The notes under the pieces were generated by a model. The model saw only the letters and a list, made by a program, of their open reading frames with translations. It made no database searches and was not told the DNA's origin. A program made the translations under genes and the position numbers. This document shows positions 795 to 63,961 of a DNA stretch of 64,000 nt, in pieces. The DNA comes from Athripsodes cinereus (lineage: Eukaryota > Arthropoda > Insecta > Trichoptera > Leptoceridae), in NCBI GenBank assembly GCA_947579605.1, contig OX388316.1, positions 19,161,290-19,225,289 of the forward strand, written 5' to 3'. Position 1 is the first letter of the stretch. Every line of letters starts with the position of its first letter.

Positions 795-980
795 ATCTTG
801 CTTTTATACAGGGCTTTTGGCATCGCAGGACCCGTCATCTGGAACCGATTCTCCGAGGACCTTCGTAAAAACCAATCAATAACAACGTTCAGGAGCAAGT
901 TGAAGACATCGCTCTTCCAACATAGTTTCTCGCGCCCTTGAGATGGTTGCTTCATTAAAGGGCGCCGAATAAATCATCCA
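795..980 (+). pseudogene. 3' end of a CR1/Jockey-type non-LTR retrotransposon
   Basis: Bases 801-941 translate to the usual C-terminal tail of a non-LTR reverse transcriptase ORF2: RAFGIAGPVIWN, then EDLRKNQSITTFRSKLKT, ending in SFSRP and a stop. The pattern 'R-F...A-P..WN-L...LR....FK..LK..LF' closes many CR1, L2 and Jockey polyproteins. Beyond the stop comes a GC-rich hairpin (GCGCCCTTGAGATGG ... GGGCGCC) and AATAAATCATCC, which recurs at 11590, 37855 and 38340 as a 3' tail. The copy is severely 5'-truncated. The family name is inferred. Confidence 0.7.
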
Positions 981-24400: not shown

Positions 24401-27400
24401 CTTCTGACTCAGCACTCGAGTTTACAAAGTTTTGTTAGGATATTTTATGTAGTGATATTTCCACTGTGAAATTTCTTACCATAATATGAATGGGTATATG
24501 TAGTTTTATATAAATGTATACAATGTCAACATAGAAATGTATGAAATATGTAACAGACACTATTGTATCCGAGACACCTTCATAAATAACAATATTGAGA
24601 CGGGTAATATTTTGTTTGTCAGAGAAAATATTACACCTTCAGAAGAAAAATCAATAGTCTGAACTAAGCCTTAGTTTTTTCTCTCACTAGTATTATGCGA
24701 AAAAGCTTACACTGGGTTTACACCTTTAATAACATGAATATACACTGAGAAAAATACTAACGAAATTTCACAACGAATCATTGGTACCTACTATCAGATT
24801 AGGACTAGAAATAGTACAAACGATTCATTAGTACGAATCTATAATATTAAGTTTTCGCAAAAAAAATGTTGGTAAATTTTTCTCAGTGTATCTTCACTTG
24901 ATATTTGTATGTAGTACGTTGTTTTTCACATACAAAAATAAAATCAACCGTTTTATGTATAATTGCCATAAAAAAATGTTTTTTTTTTAAAAAAAAAACA
25001 ATTTATACTACTTTTATATCATTGATGAGGTATTCCACCCATTGTAAGGTGTTAATTTTACTTGGCACCTAGAGAACAACAGACTATAACATGCAGATAA
25101 TTCACTGACCCCAGTTGCTGGTAGCAGTATCCCGTTAATGAAAATTATATCTATTCTATTCTATTTTCAAAGGCCATCCACTTGTTAACGAGTGATCAGG
25201 GTAAAATTATATCAATATTTTTCTGAATTAGTCTGAAAAGCTACTGAGATTTATTTTATTCAGACCGGTTGAATCTCCGATTTGTCACCTATCCTGAATG
25301 TCCTATTTTGGTTGGCACGGAGAGTACAGTTTGCATGATTATTACATGCAGCTGGTCTGCTGGCTACCCCAGTTGTGGGATATGCCGTGATGGAATAGAA
25401 ACGGAATGGAACTTCCGTAACAGAATATGTCTTCCACACTTTTTTGCTAGAGTTAGTCACATGCAGTTTATCAACTTGCTGAAAGACATTTTACATATTA
25501 AATTTAGCGATGAAATTTGCCATCCATCCTAAATATCTTTCATATATTTTTTTGAACCGAGGGTGCAACTTGCATGTTTGTAATGTGCAGCTGGTTTGCT
25601 GGCTACCCCATTTGTAGGATATGCCGTGATGGTAAAGTATTTGTAATCTACTTGCTTTCTCAGTTATGGGAAATGCCGATATTGTGTGTATGAATGACAA
25701 AACTCTTAATTATGGTATTTTAATTTTATATAATTTATTCATTGTAATTCTGTAATTCAAAAAGACATTATGAATTATAGTGATTGTATGATAACATAAT
25801 ATTTTATTATGAAAGTTCCAATACATTTTTTTTTCTTTAATTGTATCGGCATTAACTTTTTAACACTTCATTTTAATTTATCAAATAAAATTAATATTTA
25901 TTATAATTAAAAGTTACATTAAACAATAATAATAAATATTCATTTTATTTGATAGTTCCAATTTATATTTATACCTACCTGATTATTGCTTAATTGTATT
26001 TTTATCTAACCCAACATCAAGTTATTTTTTCAAGGATGTCACATTTTTTCTGCAAATGTGGTAACAGCACACGGCCGTGTGCCTGTTTGGCTCAAAACTG
26101 AGAATCACACAATCGTTCCGATTAAATTGCGTACAGTTAATTATAATAATATTTTATATTGCGGTTTCAAAATAGCAGATTATTGGTCAGTGCTATAAAA
26201 TTTTCATCTAACGCAAAAAGATACGTGTTGTCATTGAGTGACCGAACAACTATTTAACGCAATGAAACTTTGTATGGTATACCCATTTATTTTTGCAATA
26301 TCATATTTCGTAGAATATGGAATCATTTGTCTACCATATTTAAGCAAAGAGGATCTCTTAAGGACTTTAAAAAGAAAATGTTAAGTTATATAACCCACAA
26401 GAATTCTTGTTGGTTTATCTAAGGAATAGATACTGAAGATTTCGGACTTTGAGTGATAAATATATTTCGATCAAATATATATGTATTTATATGAATATTG
26501 TATGTCGATTTATACATATACCTACTTAATTATATTGAGATAATATTCTGAACATGGCAAAACACCCCTTTAAGGGAAGAAATGTAAATTAGAGGAATAG
26601 AATATATTGCAAAAAGTGAGTATTGTGATTTAAATTTTAATCCTTGAAAGAATTTAGTGACTGTCGATTGTAACCAATGTAGTAGAATTAATTTTTTTTT
26701 TAAATTTGACAAATTTCATAAATGACATTGTTTACAATTTGTTTAAAATTACATTGACAGCGATAAATTGTTAACTCTAGTACAGTTAACTCCATGATTA
26801 CGGATCTTAGTGGGAAAACTTTTACTATGTGTAATATGTAATCCAGAAGTCTTTCTTTCACGAGACACCGTTTCTATGATAAGGCAACGGCTTCAGAAGA
26901 GTGCGAATAAATTGGCACCAAGAGGTTTTGAATAAAGGAGGTCAGTTTTAACCCTGTGCTCCCGAGAGGAGCGTTGTAGGGCGAGCAATGATGATTACAT
27001 CGCGGCGTATCCAAAAAATCGGGTAGCCAATACGTACTTAATGCAAGGATTTAATATGCCGATTGTCTTTTCCATGGCAATAAAAAAGCATAATATATTA
27101 TTTGATATTGGTAATTTATTTGTAATTTTTCATATTTATTTATCAACGGTATCTACACCACAGACGACATAAATATGGTTTAAGTATTAGTTTCATTTTT
27201 TTAATAAACTCAAATAAGATAATTAAAGTTGTAGTTGGTACCTATTTATAAAAATATTATTAAAAAATGCATAACATTTTAGCATAGACATACATATTTC
27301 TTTATAAAAAACTTGTAAAGATAAGCATCAAATATATTTTGTCTGTCGTTTATAACATTAATAAAACCTGTTGGATGTCCTTTGTTACAACAAAATATTT

Positions 27401-36290: not shown

Positions 36291-36418
36291 TGCATTTTAT
36301 ATGTGTGAATCGTCGTGTCAGTAGTACTCATAATACAAAGTTCATGACTTAATTTGGGACTTTTTGAATTCGTAATCCAGCTAATCTTATTTGAGTATTT
36401 TGAGAATATTTGAGATAA

Positions 36419-36672
36419 CACTGAGAAAAATTCTAACGAAATTTCACAACGAATCATTGGTACATACTATTAGATTAGGACCAGAGATAGTACAAACGAT
36501 TCATTAGTACGAATCTTTAATATTAACTTTTCGCAAAAAAATCGTTGGTTAATTTACCTAACTAATTAATAAGTCAATATTATAGATTGGTACTATTGAA
36601 TCGTTTGTACTATCTCTGGTCCTAATCTGATAGTACGTACCAATGATTCTTTGTGAAATTTCGTTAGTATTT
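36419..36672. mobile_element. Rearranged relative of the 24743 MITE
   Basis: Starts CACTGAGAAAAATTCTAACG like the 146-bp MITE, includes its whole body, and then a second inverted partial copy of the left half (36590-36671). The result is ~80-bp inverted arms and no second CACTGAG end. Confidence 0.7.
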
Positions 36673-37850
36673 TATATATTGTTATTATGTAAGGAACGCG
36701 CCGACAAATCTATTTTAATGGATTTGGCGCGACTGTATATTTGTATTTAATGTTTATATTATATGAAATAAATACCTAAATTTAAAAAAAATTGTATAAT
36801 ATCAGAAATCAAAATTCATCTAAAAAGTGAAGATTTACATTTCTTTTGTTTCGCCTTTCTACTATTCTCATCTCGGAGGCAAAAGGTGTCCAGTAAAATA
36901 TTTTTTTTAACGAGGATATGAGCAATGATATAACATAATAATGTATCAGAAAAAAAGAGTTTGAAAGCTGTTTTTTAAATACGTATTTTTTTTTAATAAT
37001 GCAAGAAAATTCAGATACCTAATCAGAAACTCATTTGTTATTCAAACTGTTTGTTCTCGTATCTAATATTGTATAGGTTTATCATAATGTGCACTGTAAA
37101 TGCATCTACATGTAATTGAACATCAATAAAATATTCATTACATATTATGTACAATCAATCCTTTACAGTGGCGTATCAAAACTTTTGCAGGGCCCTGAGC
37201 GAACTAAATTGTGCGGGGCCTCTGACGACATATTATATTTCTTCCCCCCGTAACCAATTTTTTTGGTAATGACATTTGAGCAAATATTACCTTCCTCGTA
37301 GAATTTCACGGAAAAGAATAGGTAACTCACACTTTTCTATAAATTATCAGTGTCCTGTTAAAGCTAGGAGTTAAATTAACATCTTCAATTTTGTGATAAG
37401 GCACAGCTCGCATCCTGAATTTTTTTTTATTGACAAGTGGAAAACTATATCTGGATTTTGATTTGATATTTTGGTATAATAATAAAAAATAATTGCCTTG
37501 GCTTTGATAAATTCAAATTCAAATATTTCTATTGACGTAATAATAAACACATTAAGTTTGGGTAGATGGCGCTCTTGCAGCTGCTGAACCCACAACTTCT
37601 CTTTCTTTTAAATTCAAAGTAATAGTTAAACATCAATTAAATTATTATTTTGTTTTCATTCCGACTAAAATACAGTGTAGTTTATTTAATTATGTTGTTT
37701 TTAGTATTTACTGTGCTAAAGTTCAAATGATAAATTGTATAAAAAGAAATATACAAACTAAATCTTATAAAAATTTGTGACAATAATAATATTTAACCAA
37801 ATTTGTTTTATAAAAGTAGTGAAGAATAAATAATAATGTGAAATAGTAGT
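36673..37850. other. Intergenic DNA
   Basis: AT-rich. Contains a GTAGATGGCGCTCTTGCAGC word near 37562 like those in short insect repeats. No gene. Confidence 0.35.
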
Positions 37851-38020: not shown

Positions 38021-38263
38021 TAGCTTGTTAATCTCAACAAAAAGACGATGCAAAAAACCTGATCTACTTATACCAGTGATATGTTATACCTAGATTTGCA
38101 ATATGAATCTCAAACATGTACCATCAATAAAATCTCGTTGCGGTCCTTGGTGCCGCAATTTTTAGTTTGAAAAAAAGCGACACACATATAAATTGTTTGT
38201 AGATAACAAGAGATAGACAATATGAGAATGGGGATTATAACAGACGACAAAGGCCGGTAGATA

Positions 38264-39190
38264 GAGATGAATATATACAAAAGAAAAGAGATAATAATAA
38301 TAATAATAAAAATATAATTTATTTGGCGCTGTTTAATGGTCCGTGACCATCTCAAGAGCGCCGGCGTGGCTTGTTAATTAAGTTGGAAGCATCTTCTAGG
38401 CCAAACATGAAGTTCATGTAACGCTGCTGCCACTGCAGAGGACGGTCGGGACTTTGGGCAAACTCATCCCACATAGAACTCCATTCATTCACAGACACCT
38501 CTCCATCTTTATTGGCATCAGTTCTCTGCCTCAGTACATCCCATATCTTGGTCATGGTGTCGTACGTCTCTACGTTCTTAGGATGACTCTGGGGCCATCC
38601 ACGACGAGTGCAGATTTTCTGAATAGCTAACTCGAAGTCCTTCTTTTCGAGCGTTCCACTTTGGTTGACATCAAAGAAAACGTTGGACACATAGAGAAGC
38701 TTCTTCTTGCGGAGATATGAGATAGGCATCGTGGTAAATTGGAATCGTGAGACAAAGCAGTATTTTTGTCTCTTTCACCCGCTGTGTTGTTGCGAGTAGT
38801 CGGTGTTGTTATCCTTTTCTGTTACACTACCGGACATACACTGATCACTACACGCTGGCACTTGTGAGACAACAAAGTGATTCCCGGAAGGGGTCGATTT
38901 TTTTAACACGTGTTTTGTCAATAGAAGCGGGAATGTAACACAAAATGATGACTTGTTAAAGTTTTGAAGAGACAATCAACAATAATGAATATTAATTTAT
39001 TTCGAGTTTTGATGAAGTTTAAGAGATGATGAGATGCAAAAAAACTACGCGGTTTTGTAATGTTAGCGTGCACAAGAAAGTTCAGCACTGTAGGACCGAT
39101 ATCTTTCGTAAAATCGAATTATTTATATGAGCGGTTTGATTTGCGTGGCGGCAGCTAGATAGCGCGCAACCCACCCGAGATGAATATATA
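38264..39190 (-). mobile_element. Chimeric retrocopy: EF-hand mRNA joined to a CR1-like 3' end
   Basis: GAGATGAATATATA occurs at 38264-38277 and 39177-39190. Between them, on the minus strand, lie ~450 bp of untranslated sequence, an EF-hand coding segment without introns, and then a CR1-like 3' tail (GCGCTCTTGAGATGGTC ... AGCGCC ... (TAT)n) in the same sense. This is the layout expected if a LINE reverse transcriptase began on its own 3' end and switched to a cellular mRNA. Thirteen bases (CTCTTTTCTTTTG on the minus strand) lie between the microsatellite and the direct repeat, so the limits are provisional. Confidence 0.6.
38352..38729 (-). CDS. Sarcoplasmic calcium-binding protein-like (EF-hand), 3'-truncated and fused to LINE tail
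   Basis: 125 codons from ATG at 38729. The start MPISYLRKKKLLYV and the segment WQQRYMNFMFGLEDAS match what I recall of insect sarcoplasmic calcium-binding proteins (calexcitin-like). EF-hand 1 loop is D20-x-N22-x-S24-G-T26...D31. EF-hand 2 loop is D71-x-N73-x-D75-G-E77...E82, both with good Ca2+ ligands. EF-hand 3 begins at D113 (DAS) but is cut. The last residues (LINKPRRRS) come from CR1-like 3' sequence, ending at the TGA that also closes related element tails. The full protein is ~190 residues, so the C-terminal third is gone. No donor site lies at the break. The frame is intact, so a short calcium-binding product is possible. A retrocopy is preferred over a host exon because of the fused tail and flanking direct repeats. 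Confidence 0.65.
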   Translation of the reverse strand: MPISYLRKKKLLYVSNVFFDVNQSGTLEKKDFELAIQKICTRRGWPQSHPKNVETYDTMTKIWDVLRQRTDANKDGEVSVNEWSSMWDEFAQSPDRPLQWQQRYMNFMFGLEDASNLINKPRRRS

Positions 39191-39300
39191 TTACTCAGGT
39201 ATTGTACCTCGACGGGTGGGTACACATTTTTAGAGAATATTTGTATGACATTGCGAATCTAGTTGTAACATATCACTGACTTATACTAAGAATATTGTGA

Positions 39301-41460: not shown

Positions 41461-42711
41461 GATAGATATATATATATATATATATTTATTTATTTATTTA
41501 TTTCATTTACGGCGTTAGCCCTTACACTTGCATAATATTATGAACAAAGATACAAATTTCAACAATAATAAAACATTAATCAAATCAGTAATAAAACTTT
41601 AAAATATACATAAAAGTTCATACACATATTCAAACATAAACAACAATCTAGATACATTTTTAAAATTTTGGAAGATGTTAATATATATGTATATTAAAGT
41701 ATACCTATATATTGGGAATCCTTATAAATATACAATGAATGAGAAAAATACAATAATCATAGACAAATAATATATATTTCTCTGACAATAATGGTAAATA
41801 TAAAAAACCAGTAAGTAATTACATAATATTGGTAAACATTTCAACATATTCTTAACATGGTATACATTTCAAAAAAATAGATATAGGTCAGATATAGGTA
41901 CGTAAAATTAATAACATTACCTTTACTACATATAATAACATACATAAAAGTAGAAATATTTTAGGATAAAAGTGGACAACTCAACATAAAACAATAGTGC
42001 ATATATGCAAACATACTTCAGATAGCATTCACGCAATTCTCAGCCAATACACACAAGTGTATAATATATAGTACATGGATTATGTATATTATTATGTAGT
42101 TACGTTATATTGTATCATTATAGAGAGACAAAAGATGGGTTGTAATTGACCGTTTGACAGCAGTTTGAGTGTCATAAAAAATATCTACAATGTGACCATA
42201 TGTATTCGCTGTACTATGGAGACGGGGGATGATGCTATGTTGGAAGTGGTTGGTTTTAGTTCTAGGAATAGAGAATAGTGTGGATTGTCTTAAGGGTCTA
42301 CTTTGAACATGATATTTTATATTTTCAACCAGGGCCGTACTGTCTATTAAATTATTTATTATTTTATGTAGCAACAATATGTCATTGATGTTTCTTCTAT
42401 CAGCGAGCGTTAACATGTTCAACAATGGTAATAAATAATTATAATTAATATCTTCTATCGGTATACCTAGTTTGTAATTAATCAGCCTCAAGAATTTGTG
42501 TTGAACACGTTCTATGGTTTTCACATGTACTGCGTAATGTGGAGACCATATCGGCGTTACATATTCCAGTTGGCTTCGGACCAATGCACAATACAAGGTT
42601 ACCAGACAGTTGATAGATTTAAAATCTTTGCATATTCTGCTTATGAACCCCAACATCTTCAAGGCCTTATCTGCAATCTGCAATCATATATATATATATA
42701 TATATATATAT
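41461..42711 (-). mobile_element. 5'-truncated Jockey-like element inserted in a TA microsatellite
   Basis: The 3' end is an (AAAT)n tail (minus strand) at 41486-41503. (TA)n tracts border both sides, at ~41467-41486 and 42687-42711, consistent with insertion into, or duplication of, a TA tract. Contains the ORF2 C-terminus at 42105-42683 and a ~600-bp 3' UTR. Confidence 0.7.
42105..42683 (-). pseudogene. Jockey-type ORF2 C-terminal region (5'-truncated)
   Basis: 192 codons without a stop. The order DKALKMLGFISRICKDF, LVTLYCALVRSQLEYVTPIW, IERVQHKFLRLIN, LADRRNINDILLLHKIINNL is the standard region after the reverse-transcriptase core in Jockey-clade elements ('LGFI.R....F.......LY..LVRS.LEY...IW.P' and 'RR..D...L.K..N..'). 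The catalytic domain is missing, so it cannot replicate. The open frame suggests recent insertion. Confidence 0.8.
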
Positions 42712-55067: not shown

Positions 55068-56565
55068 ATTTCAAAGAAATACCCAGTCGCATACTCTGAA
55101 GTAAAGAATTTCTTCACTGACAAAACACAGCCACGATGTGCTATACAAGATAAAAACGGCAAACTGCTGTTTGAGGACGAATTGATCGTAAAAAGATGGA
55201 AAGAATACCTAGAACAATTATACAAAGGAAAGAACATAGTCCAGGAAAGCAAAGCACTAGAAGCAGAATATGACATAGAAAATAATGGAGATGACATCTT
55301 AAGAAGTGAATTTGATATTGCCTTAGTAAAGTTGAAAGACGGCAAAGCACCAGGTATTGACCTGATTCCATCAGAGCTGCTGAAATGCGCGGGAAAAGGC
55401 ATGCTTGATACATTGTATAAGCTTATCTGCAAAATATACGACACAGGAGAGATACCTGAGGACTTTGCCAAATGTCTGATACGAGCGCTCCCTAAGAAAG
55501 CAGGCACGACAAAGTGCGAACAACACAGAACCTTAAGCATGATATCACACGCTTCTAAGATACTCACCAACATTATAATGAAAAGGGCGGAAAGTAAAAT
55601 CAACGAAACACTTTCAGAAGATCAATTTGGATTCCGCAAAGAGACAGGCACAAGAGATGCAATCCTGAGTCTCAGACTTACTCTAGAAAAGAGATTAACA
55701 ATTAATAAAAACACATATATAGCATTCATCGACCTTGAAAAAGCATTCGATAAAGTAGAATGGGAACAACTTTTTAACACCCTCAACCAGATAAGAATGA
55801 GTTATAAAGACAGAAGTGCAATCTGGAGCTTATACAAGAACGAAATGGCTGTGATTAAAAGCGGAGAGAGCTGCGCAGAAGCAAGGGTCGAACAAGGTGT
55901 GAGACAGGGATGCTCAATGTCGCCAGCTCTCTTTAACTGCTATATACAGCGAGCCATTGATGAACTGAGAGAAGAAATGAAGAACTGGACAGGAGTAAAA
56001 ATAAATGGGAAAAGGTCGACATGATAAGATATGCTGACGACATAGCACTGCTCGCAGACTCCGAGATGGAGCTGAACGAAGCCTTAGGAAAAATGGAAAG
56101 TATACTGTTGTCAAAGTACAACATGAAAATAAATAAAGAAAAAACAAAATGTATGGTCGTTGGAAAAGAGGAAGCGACTGCGAACATTGCCTTAAATGGA
56201 GTGAGCATCAAACAAGTAAGTGAATTCGTGTAGGTCTGTAGCTTAAGTTCCATTGGTCGGAGCACGTCGAAAACGAAGAAGTATTAACCAGGGTAGGCGA
56301 AAAAAGGCAACTCCTTAAGAGAATCAGCCAACAACGAGCTAACTGGATTGGCCACAATATTAGGCACCCAGGACTACTCATCGCCATCGCGGAGGGTAAG
56401 ACCGAGGGGACAAATAGCAGAGGCTGACCAAGAGACGCATATATGGACCAACTGAAGAGGGACATGAAATGTGGCTCATACGTGGAGCTGAAAAGACTGG
56501 CTGAGAATAGGGACGAATGGAGAAGAAAAACCAAACTCGTTGCAGACCAATCCAATGGATTGTAA
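55068..56565 (+). mobile_element. RTE-like non-LTR retrotransposon, 5'-truncated, frameshifted and internally deleted
   Basis: Covers the end of the linker, the reverse transcriptase and the C-terminal tail. The end is DEWRRKTKLVADQSNGL and TAA at 56563-56565. 5' border lies near 55015-55068. Related fragments are at 29484-29611 and 57945-58200. Confidence 0.75.
55068..56565 (+). pseudogene. RTE-like reverse transcriptase (broken)
   Basis: Frame 1 runs 55068-56024. It has CAIQDKNGKLLFEDELIVKR, LKDGKAPGIDLIPSELLK, RTLSMISHASKIL, QFGFRKETGTRDAI, motif A FIDLEKAFDKVEW with the first catalytic Asp, and motif B GVRQGCSMSPALF. A one-base loss near 56015 shifts frame. Motif C then appears as MIRYADDIALLAD (56021-56059), the YADD box with the other two catalytic Asp residues, followed by NMKINKEKTKCMVV. 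The frame stops at 56233, just after VSEFV, and the following ~100-codon region is deleted. It resumes at HVENEEVLTRVGE, QQRANWIGHNIRHPGLL and EGTNSRG, where TGA replaces the Arg codon of the usual GRPR. A pseudogene on three counts. Confidence 0.8.
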
Positions 56566-62459: not shown

Positions 62460-63025
62460 TGTATTAAAAATTTACCTACCTATGCTTAGCTGACTATTGT
62501 GTATGTCTTTCTGATTACTACTATTATATTATACTTGTATAAATTCTAATATACTTTTAGTTAGAGCTGTAGTGCTTATATATATTTGTAAAAATTTGCT
62601 AGTATCTAAGTTTTATATTGTTCTCCTTATATGATATGCATTGTTTTTTCACTTGACTGTTTTCTTTTTTATTATGTTTGTAAAGGCTGTTTCAGCCGTT
62701 TATTGTATAAATAAATAAATAAATAAAAAATAAAATCTAGATTGTGTGTTGGAAAGTCAAGTGAAATATATCTTTTCTCTACAAGAGTTGCAAAAATACG
62801 TAATAAAGATCTATATAACCAAAATTATGATCACACAAAAAGCTCATAAAGGAGTAATTTATTTTCATCAATCCATCAATCTTGGTTGGAGATCCATATT
62901 GTGCAAATTCTAAAGTAGAAAAATGCGAAAGATGTCTTATTCTTAGCATTTCTAATTGGTACATAAATACACTTACAAAAAAATCCAACTCAATGTTCAT
63001 TTGATTTCACAGTGTTGCTCTCAAA
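62460..63025. other. Spacer with a LINE-like tail
   Basis: GGCTGTTTCAGCCGTTTATT then (AAAT)n at 62709-62730 looks like a non-LTR 3' end. No coding sequence. Confidence 0.4.
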
Positions 63026-63961
63026 TATTAGGTCCTTACATATGAAATTGGCGTTTGGCGAACTGGCAACTTTGATTCAAAATATGTGGCGTTCGGCTAG
63101 GAATTCCAAATTCAAATTTATTTCAAATTTAAGACCATGTATTTCTGTGTTCGAATTACGAAATTTATTTGTTATCGCGTCATTTGTTTTTCTTTCACAT
63201 CGTTCTGTTCACAATATGGAGAACTTAAAATATCGCTATATTTACGAATATGAGTTTCACCTCGGCACTAGTGCTGCAGAAACGGCTCGTAGGATTAACA
63301 ATGCGTATGGGGAAGCTACTGCAAAAGAAAATACGGTACGTTATTGGTTCCAACGTTTCCGTTCTGGAAATTTTGACCTACAGAACAAGCCTCGTGGACG
63401 GCCGGAGACACAAGTTGATAACGAAGAATTAAAAGCAATTGTGGAAGCAGATCCATCGCAAATCACGTCAGAGTTAGCGGCAGGCTTCGGTGTGAGTGAT
63501 AAAACCATTTTGATTCACTTGAAACAAATTGGAAAAGTGAAAAAACTTGAAAAATGGGTACCGCATGAATTGGTACTGCTGCTTCAGGACAACGCTCGAC
63601 CACATACGGCACGTTTGACGACCGCAAAACTACGGGAGCTGCGACTGGAATGTCTTCGACACCCACCATACTCCCCGGACCTTGCTCCAACTGATTACCA
63701 TTTTTTTCGGAATTTGGACAACTTCATGCAAGGAAAAAAATTCAATTCTCACGAGGCTGTCCAAACGGCCTTCAAAGATTTTATTGATTCTCGCTCACAC
63801 ACTTTTTTTAGTAAAGGAATCAATGAACTACCTTCGAGATGGCAAAAGTGCATAGATAGCCATGGTACATACTTTGACTAAATAAAAAAATAGTTTCATA
63901 AAAAAAAATCGTTTTCATTTCTGCCATATGAAACGCCAATTTCATATGTAAGGACCTAATA
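63026..63961 (+). mobile_element. Mariner transposon, internally deleted (932 bp)
   Basis: TA duplications at 63026-63027 and 63960-63961 flank perfect 29-bp terminal inverted repeats, 63028-63056 and 63931-63959 (TTAGGTCCTTACATATGAAA...). Full mariners are ~1.3 kb, so about 350 bp are missing from the transposase gene. Perfect ends suggest a young or recently mobilised copy. Confidence 0.93.
63216..63881 (+). pseudogene. Mariner transposase with in-frame internal deletion
   Basis: 221 codons from ATG 63216 (MENLKYRYIYEYEFHLGTSA) to TAA-type stop at 63881. The N-terminal helix-turn-helix DNA-binding region is present (AAETARRINNAYG, VRYWFQRFRSGNFDL, GRPETQVDNEELKAIVEADP, HLKQIGKVKKLEKWVPHEL). 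After residue 119 the sequence jumps to VLLLQDNARPH (D125) and SPDLAPTDY (D160). D125 and D160 are 34 residues apart, the mariner D34D spacing. The first catalytic Asp (TCDEKW-type block) and its surroundings are deleted. The usual length is ~345 residues. It may still bind the terminal repeats but cannot catalyse transposition. The frame also extends upstream to 63012, through the left terminal repeat; the start at 63216 matches the family. Confidence 0.92.

Follow-up and report, generated by a model that had tools for sequence, protein, structure and literature searches.

We found that the block at 38264-39190 on the minus strand of the window (the whole 64-kb stretch of Athripsodes cinereus DNA that was analysed) very probably belongs, as one copy, to a family of non-autonomous, LINE-dependent retroposons that have a protein-coding mRNA as their head. 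The original prediction described the block as a one-off chimeric gene, a description that does not survive a search of the surrounding genome: the junction string GATGCTTCCAACTTAACTAAAAAG occurs at 427 genomic sites with at most two mismatches, compared with 0 sites for a reversed control pattern, which makes the block one copy among hundreds. The machinery is ordinary (presumably a LINE acting in trans); it is the head, a protein-coding mRNA turned into a repeat of hundreds of copies, that is unusual.

Read in the minus sense, the block runs through TATATATTCATCTC, GG, a 445-nt leader, a 125-codon ORF, a hairpin, (TAT)n, a short stretch and a second TATATATTCATCTC. The features of this copy and of its insertion site are as follows:

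38066-39286, no strand: host MITE split by the insertion, with terminal inverted repeats at 38074-38102 and 39250-39278
38264-38277, no strand: target-site duplication (TSD), 3' copy (element sense minus), exact 14-mer
38278-38290, minus strand: short stretch separating (TAT)n from the TSD
38291-38370, minus strand: LINE-type tail, consisting of GCC, the hairpin GGCGC..CTTGAGATGG..GCGCC, then (TAT)n
38352-38729, minus strand: 125-codon ORF, in which 116 calexcitin/SCP2 codons (EF-hands 1 and 2) precede LINKPRRRS and a stop
38371-38382, minus strand: remnant of the parental 3'UTR, CTTAACTAAAAA in the family consensus and slightly altered in the window copy
38382-38383, minus strand: internal-deletion junction CCAA/CTTAA (type C), distinct from the LINE fusion point
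38730-39174, minus strand: 445-nt leader, consensus 1-445, from comparison of the 40 scored copies
39089-39127, minus strand: putative core promoter, by reading, with TATAAATA (39120-39127) and a CAGT initiator-like site (A at 39089)
39177-39190, no strand: TSD, 5' copy, exact 14-mer

The 14-mer GAGATGAATATATA that had been predicted to bound the block is exact at both ends, and 38264-38277 and 39177-39190 are its only mismatch-free sites in the 64-kb window. Two additional G (39175-39176) lie between the 5' TSD and the usual first base of the element, and the stretch at 38278-38290 follows (TAT)n in none of the other 39 scored copies. The 292-bp MITE into which this copy was inserted has 29-nt terminal inverted repeats (CAGTGATATG...) and an 8-bp duplication, GTATAAGT (minus sense), at 38066-38073 and 39279-39286; we take it to be hAT-like from the length of the duplication and its CAGTG ends. 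Elsewhere in the window, we observed a fold-back repeat at 36415-36685 with 115-nt arms that are 89% complementary (a further copy of the arm lies at 24732-24879), and a mariner-like transposase ORF (HTH_48, DDE_3) at 63012-63881(+).

The ORF contains two EF-hand stretches and has its best protein match in SCP2 of the caddisfly Arctopsyche grandis (77%), and its relatives are insect calexcitin/SCP2/juvenile hormone diol kinase proteins, which bears out the intronless sarcoplasmic calcium-binding ORF of the original prediction. The origin of these codons in the gene stands, although their number does not: the alignment shows family residues through ...LEDASN, which is 116 codons in place of 110. 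Nine further codons (LINKPRRRS) follow where 15 had been assigned to the element, and the first four or so of these come from the parental 3'UTR and the remainder from the LINE-type tail. The ORF leaves the family after residue 116 and lacks the four-EF-hand, 184-residue architecture of calexcitin/SCP2. In the window copy the frame is open across the junction, as had been claimed, and stops at the TGA of the tail (38352-38354). The expected terminal hairpin and TAT microsatellite are both present, the hairpin in the folded consensus tail of the family. An mRNA origin, a sense fusion to a LINE-type 3' tail and a 14-bp TSD were likewise supported.

We searched the window's own genome (160 contigs, 716 Mb) and scored 40 of the 820 first-look candidates, the window copy included. 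Identity among the scored copies is 97-100% over nearly the full length (97-99% for the 39 outside the window, which were taken with 500-bp flanks for comparison). In 38 of the 40, the match extends to consensus 1 (GTGGGTTGCGCGCT, where copies usually start) or slightly past it, and in L035 and L042 it begins 1-2 nt later; at the other end, all 40 finish in a TAT-type repeat, with (TAT)n of variable length. The element measures about 0.88 kb, which is longer than a usual SINE. The 40 scored copies, all of type C (see below), diverge from the consensus by 0.3-1.8%, a figure biased low by their selection on score. We also sampled 12 places among the first 100 of the 427 junction sites, on contigs C1-C8; seven of these copies begin at consensus 1 and five are 5'-truncated. 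Exact junction matches come first among these sites, so the sample omits the window's own copy and the youngest type C copies, in which one base of the junction string differs (15 of the 40 scored copies). The family is a young, dispersed, SINE-like retroposon, present in high copy number and with a uniform composite structure.

The flanks of the scored copies are mostly unrelated at the similarity cut-off used, the exceptions being the pairs L023/L024, L014/L036 and L027/L039. L023 and L024 have both 500-bp flanks in common, that is, they are a duplication. Such a pair demonstrates that duplication happens, and spread as DNA (by a DNA transposon, a Helitron or segmental duplication) would need no reverse transcription. 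We nevertheless regard it as extremely unlikely, given the exact removal of introns, the 5'-truncated copies, the variable microsatellite 3' ends and the mostly unrelated flanks; on the last two grounds we rejected duplication at the DNA level as the chief means of spread. L014 and L036 resemble each other in part of the 5' flank, probably a repeat into which both copies inserted. In L027 and L039 the 3' flanks agree over roughly the 60 bases that follow (TAT)n and the 5' flanks differ, which could be due to 3' transduction or to both copies having entered one position in a repeat.

After exclusion of L024 as a duplicate of L023, TSD-like matches of at least 6 nt were counted in 12/39 copies, against 10.9% of mismatched control pairs, and matches of at least 7 nt in 5/39, against 3.8%. 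Clear TSDs are thus exceptional, which indicates that insertion usually leaves short TSDs or none. A cap-like G signature was absent from the 5' junctions of the 39 copies, where only A at -1 is common (22/39).

The original prediction proposed looking for the parental gene in the same genome, and it lies elsewhere, on contig C13, with introns; the block at 38264-39190 is thereby ruled out as the parental locus. We searched with the C-terminal part of the protein that is missing from the block, scored all 33 candidates and obtained 30 matches, two of which are adjacent exons on contig C13. Exons from codon 20 onward were found on this contig, the internal ones with AG before and GT after, and the last with AG before. 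The ATG exon (C13:24514047-24514079) is the sole match in the genome to its splice pattern and has an acceptor of its own at consensus 427. Together, the parental exons span C13:24514047 to 24627918, more than 113 kb, and every located intron, with its AG/GT borders, is missing from the element, which amounts to exact removal. At the position of the fusion, the reference allele of the parental DNA does not contain the LINE-type tail. Parent and element differ by nine amino-acid changes in 97 codons. The caddisfly protein P0001 sides with the parent at eight of the nine (it has a third residue at codon 48), so those eight changes arose on the element's side.

The remaining C-terminal matches show where the tail was joined. 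Of these 28 non-parental matches we compared 18, nine of which belong to a type that we call A and nine to a type B. Type A copies carry the coding sequence to the stop codon or near it, and 8/9 continue through about 70-80 nt of parental 3'UTR into the common tail; minor deletions close to the stop codon occur in L057 and L062, and L059 leaves the 3'UTR for other sequence and lacks the tail. All nine are 5'-truncated, the longest spanning codons 19-184, so that the set includes no complete type A element. The parent reads ...AATAATATAACTAAAAGTTCATT at the fusion, compared with ...AATAATATACTTAACTAAAAAGCCACGGCGC in type A, and the LINE-type part appears to begin, to an approximate base, after AACTAAAA in the 3'UTR. 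Since these older copies have a stop codon and 3'UTR before the tail, the 3'UTR is where the fusion took place, and EF-hand 3 was broken later by an internal deletion. In type B, the cut follows codon 139 and the sequence resumes at CTAAAAAGCC; in type C, the window's kind, codon 116 is the last before the cut and the sequence resumes at CTTAACTAAAAAGCC. The 3' breakpoints of the two types are a few bases apart. Type D is type C with a further 56-bp deletion that has a common GAGAG/TCC join and causes a frameshift. It accounts for 9/12 copies in the further sample (L081 having lost some more bases), L090 has a different, larger deletion, and 2/12 have neither deletion. GT-AG borders are not obtained with any of the possible breakpoints of types B, C and D, and splicing was rejected as the source of the internal deletions. 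The 5' breakpoints in D (L081-L087 and L091-L092 among the sample) and in L090 are clustered at consensus 667-676; together with the close 3' breakpoints of B and C, this clustering suggests pause sites of reverse transcriptase.

The template switch inside EF-hand 3 that had been proposed is contradicted by the type A copies. A single chimeric retrogene, made by one such switch and possibly producing protein, would account for the intact 125-codon ORF and 14-bp TSD of the window copy and for the ORF of most scored copies. It is refuted by the copy number and by the type A copies, in which the tail is joined in the 3'UTR; types B and C are separate internal deletions, and the substitution ratio and ORF retention described below argue in the same direction. 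We consider this explanation scarcely credible.

Types A, B and C agree with one another against the parent at 11 positions (33, 43, 69, 72, 96, 111, 151, 184, 186, 237 and 279 in the numbering of the comparison), the first nine of which are covered by one or two type A copies only. These shared derived states argue for descent from one captured copy and not for independent origins from the gene. Types B and C also carry further changes of their own, and some type A copies keep the parental base where B and C have changed. Position 93 conflicts with this pattern, with a change common to A and B that is missing in C, and does not fit a simple A-to-C descent. One capture ancestral to A, B and C is the simplest reading of these sequences. 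Divergence from their own consensus is 0.9-6.6% in type A and 0-3.7% in type B and, judged from sequence, the youngest copies seen belong to types C and D. Four of the type D copies differ from one another by 0.6-1.6%, which implies that the frameshifted lineage has also been recently active.

The common tail has the pattern CTTGAGATGGTCACGGA..CAGCGCC, and a BLAST search with the tail against the sequences gathered for comparison gave one independent relative in the window, at 932-978(+), with 78% identity over 49 columns. This relative is part of the following feature:

810-978 (start approximate), plus strand: independent 5'-truncated LINE 3' end, a peptide running into the same kind of tail

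The reading frame that precedes the tail relative, FGIAGPVIWNRFSEDLRKNQSITTFRSKLKTSLFQHSFSRP, corresponds to about the last 40 residues of a LINE-like ORF and, as we take it, resembles the C-terminus of LINE reverse transcriptase ORFs. The chimeric ORF stops at the TGA in CTTGAG, and the same TGA terminates the LINE-like frame. A second relative of the tail lies in a parental intron, in the opposite sense and without such a reading frame. In seven hand-chosen sequences, comprising the tail relative and tails of types A, B and C, CTTGAGATGG is invariant; the tail hairpin is predicted to have 14 pairs, with both partners substituted in one pair and three others disrupted or gapped in one or two of the sequences. 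The 3' end of the family is homologous to a LINE-like 3' end, presumably of a CR1/L2-like clade; no full-length LINE with such a tail was seen among these sequences. No tail of the family's kind was found downstream of another LINE frame in the window, at 42105-42683(-). The window also contains a reverse transcriptase ORF at 55182-56024(+) (RVT_1, E 9e-26), which probably belongs to a LINE.

In the origin that we propose, a single event would have placed the 3' tail of a CR1/L2-like LINE within the 3'UTR of a spliced calexcitin/SCP2 mRNA, as its new end, giving type A. The hairpin and (TAT)n of the tail would have let the reverse transcriptase of the LINE that owned it take the RNA in trans, like the RNA of a SINE. 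Copies would have spread, and internal deletions, presumably made by jumps of the reverse transcriptase, would have yielded the shorter subfamilies B and C, and then D from C. The same family could also have begun with a fusion at the DNA level and no template switch, in which a LINE fragment inserted into the 3'UTR of an allele of the gene or of an early retrocopy and a read-through transcript was mobilised. The join is in the 3'UTR and in sense, and the LINE tail could supply the 3' end of the RNA; the reference parental allele lacks the tail, but a tailed allele or copy may have been lost. Nothing speaks directly against such a fusion, and the eight tailed type A copies have one common join. 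We regard it as a serious possibility, albeit not the likeliest.

The leader offers a candidate for the transcription of the mobile copies. TATAAATA occupies consensus 48-55 and is followed by ACAGTG with its A at 86, both of which were found by eye, and one type B copy begins at consensus 86, the initiator-like A. The distance from the TATA box to this A is 38 nt, which is farther than usual. Each type C or D copy may carry its own core promoter, given the TATA box and a leader that starts 85 nt upstream of the initiator-like site; transcription would be by RNA polymerase II. The 426-nt leader was not found in about 105 kb of the parental locus, including 13 kb around the ATG exon, a comparison that left out about 22 kb lying between the parental stretches, and its parental origin therefore rests on the splice acceptor at consensus 427. 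A tRNA or Rfam-type head was rejected, with no tRNA and no Rfam match found for the element (Rfam scope 38200-39300). On the sequence evidence, the coding head is a spliced mRNA, and nothing points to a Pol III head. A retroposon transcribed by Pol II, with an mRNA as its head and a LINE tail, might represent a new kind of SINE-like element, a suggestion that we make tentatively and with some doubt.

The retention of the frame could potentially reflect a two-EF-hand protein that helps the element or its host. The full ORF is kept in 37/40 scored copies; in the further copies it is kept in 1/12 (as a 124-codon ORF). Over the 116 family codons, the 40 scored copies have 37 distinct non-synonymous changes and 1 stop against 9 synonymous changes, which fits neutral expectation with a ratio of non-synonymous to synonymous sites of 4.2 to 1, uncorrected for transition bias. 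Substitution density is 0.0064 per site in both leader and ORF, and the tail changes faster (0.015). The frameshifted type D has also spread, so the small EF-hand protein is unnecessary for movement. Protein-level selection was accordingly rejected, and a useful protein is very improbable. The ORF is open owing to the youth of the copies, with no sign that its product matters; the functional gene once considered possible gives way to a mobile repeat family with a neutrally changing ORF and no sign of gene function.

SINE heads named in the sections of the literature cited here derive from 7SL, tRNA, 5S rRNA, snRNA, 28S rRNA and snoRNA, and two bird families are GC-rich and of unknown origin (PMC7245038); those named in the cited part of PMC13174262 include no mRNA. 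LINE-tailed SINEs (SINE2, SINE3 and others, with CR1/L2 or RTE tails) resemble the present family in their foreign RNA head, LINE-type stem-loop and repeat end, uniform structure and mobilisation in trans (PMC3747384, PMC7245038). Their heads are small or structural RNAs as described there (PMC7245038), whereas here the head is a spliced protein-coding mRNA with an ORF. The snoRTE/PlatSINE1 of platypus likewise combines a LINE tail with a cellular RNA other than tRNA and has been amplified, but is described as having a snoRNA head and an RTE tail (PMC7245038). Chimeras with cellular RNA 5' and a LINE 3' in the same sense, for which template switching was proposed, are reported from Magnaporthe grisea and, with LINE-1, from mammals (PMC2104539, PMC13174262). 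The fungal set, as given, includes 33 bipartite chimeras (WEIRD + MGL) with 28 different joins, six of them common to a pair (PMC2104539), and the mammalian set includes 17 mRNA/LINE-1 chimeras, two with one common sequence (PMC13174262). The joins in Magnaporthe differ, whereas the hundreds of copies of the present family, across its subfamilies, have inherited a single join. Like processed pseudogenes, the family is an mRNA copy without introns; unlike them, it ends in a LINE-type tail and (TAT)n with no poly(A), and its copies beget copies. Tailless retropseudogenes of therian mammals are treated in PMC5322556. In Trichoptera, TE-associated BUSCO genes likewise involve high-copy sequence overlapping genes and were explained as repeats inside or beside genes (PMC8881205); the words "calexcitin" and "chimeric" are absent from the main text of that paper. 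Searches of an open-licence library of papers listed no SINE with an mRNA head and no family like the present one.

With a parent gene, a 3'UTR fusion and several shortened derivatives in one genome, the birth of a SINE-like family can be read step by step. The finding agrees with the view that an RNA gains access to tail-specific LINEs by carrying the LINE's own 3' tail, recognition of the 3' tail by LINE reverse transcriptase having been argued previously (PMC3747384). The long-standing view of processed pseudogenes is that the want of a promoter makes them dead ends (as summarized in PMC3747384), and a core promoter carried by each copy, if true, would explain how this mRNA copy escaped that fate. 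LINE-tail capture together with an upstream start would then be a general recipe by which any gene could become a mobile family where LINEs demand their own tail. For A. cinereus itself, EF-hand "genes" annotated in the genome may be repeats.
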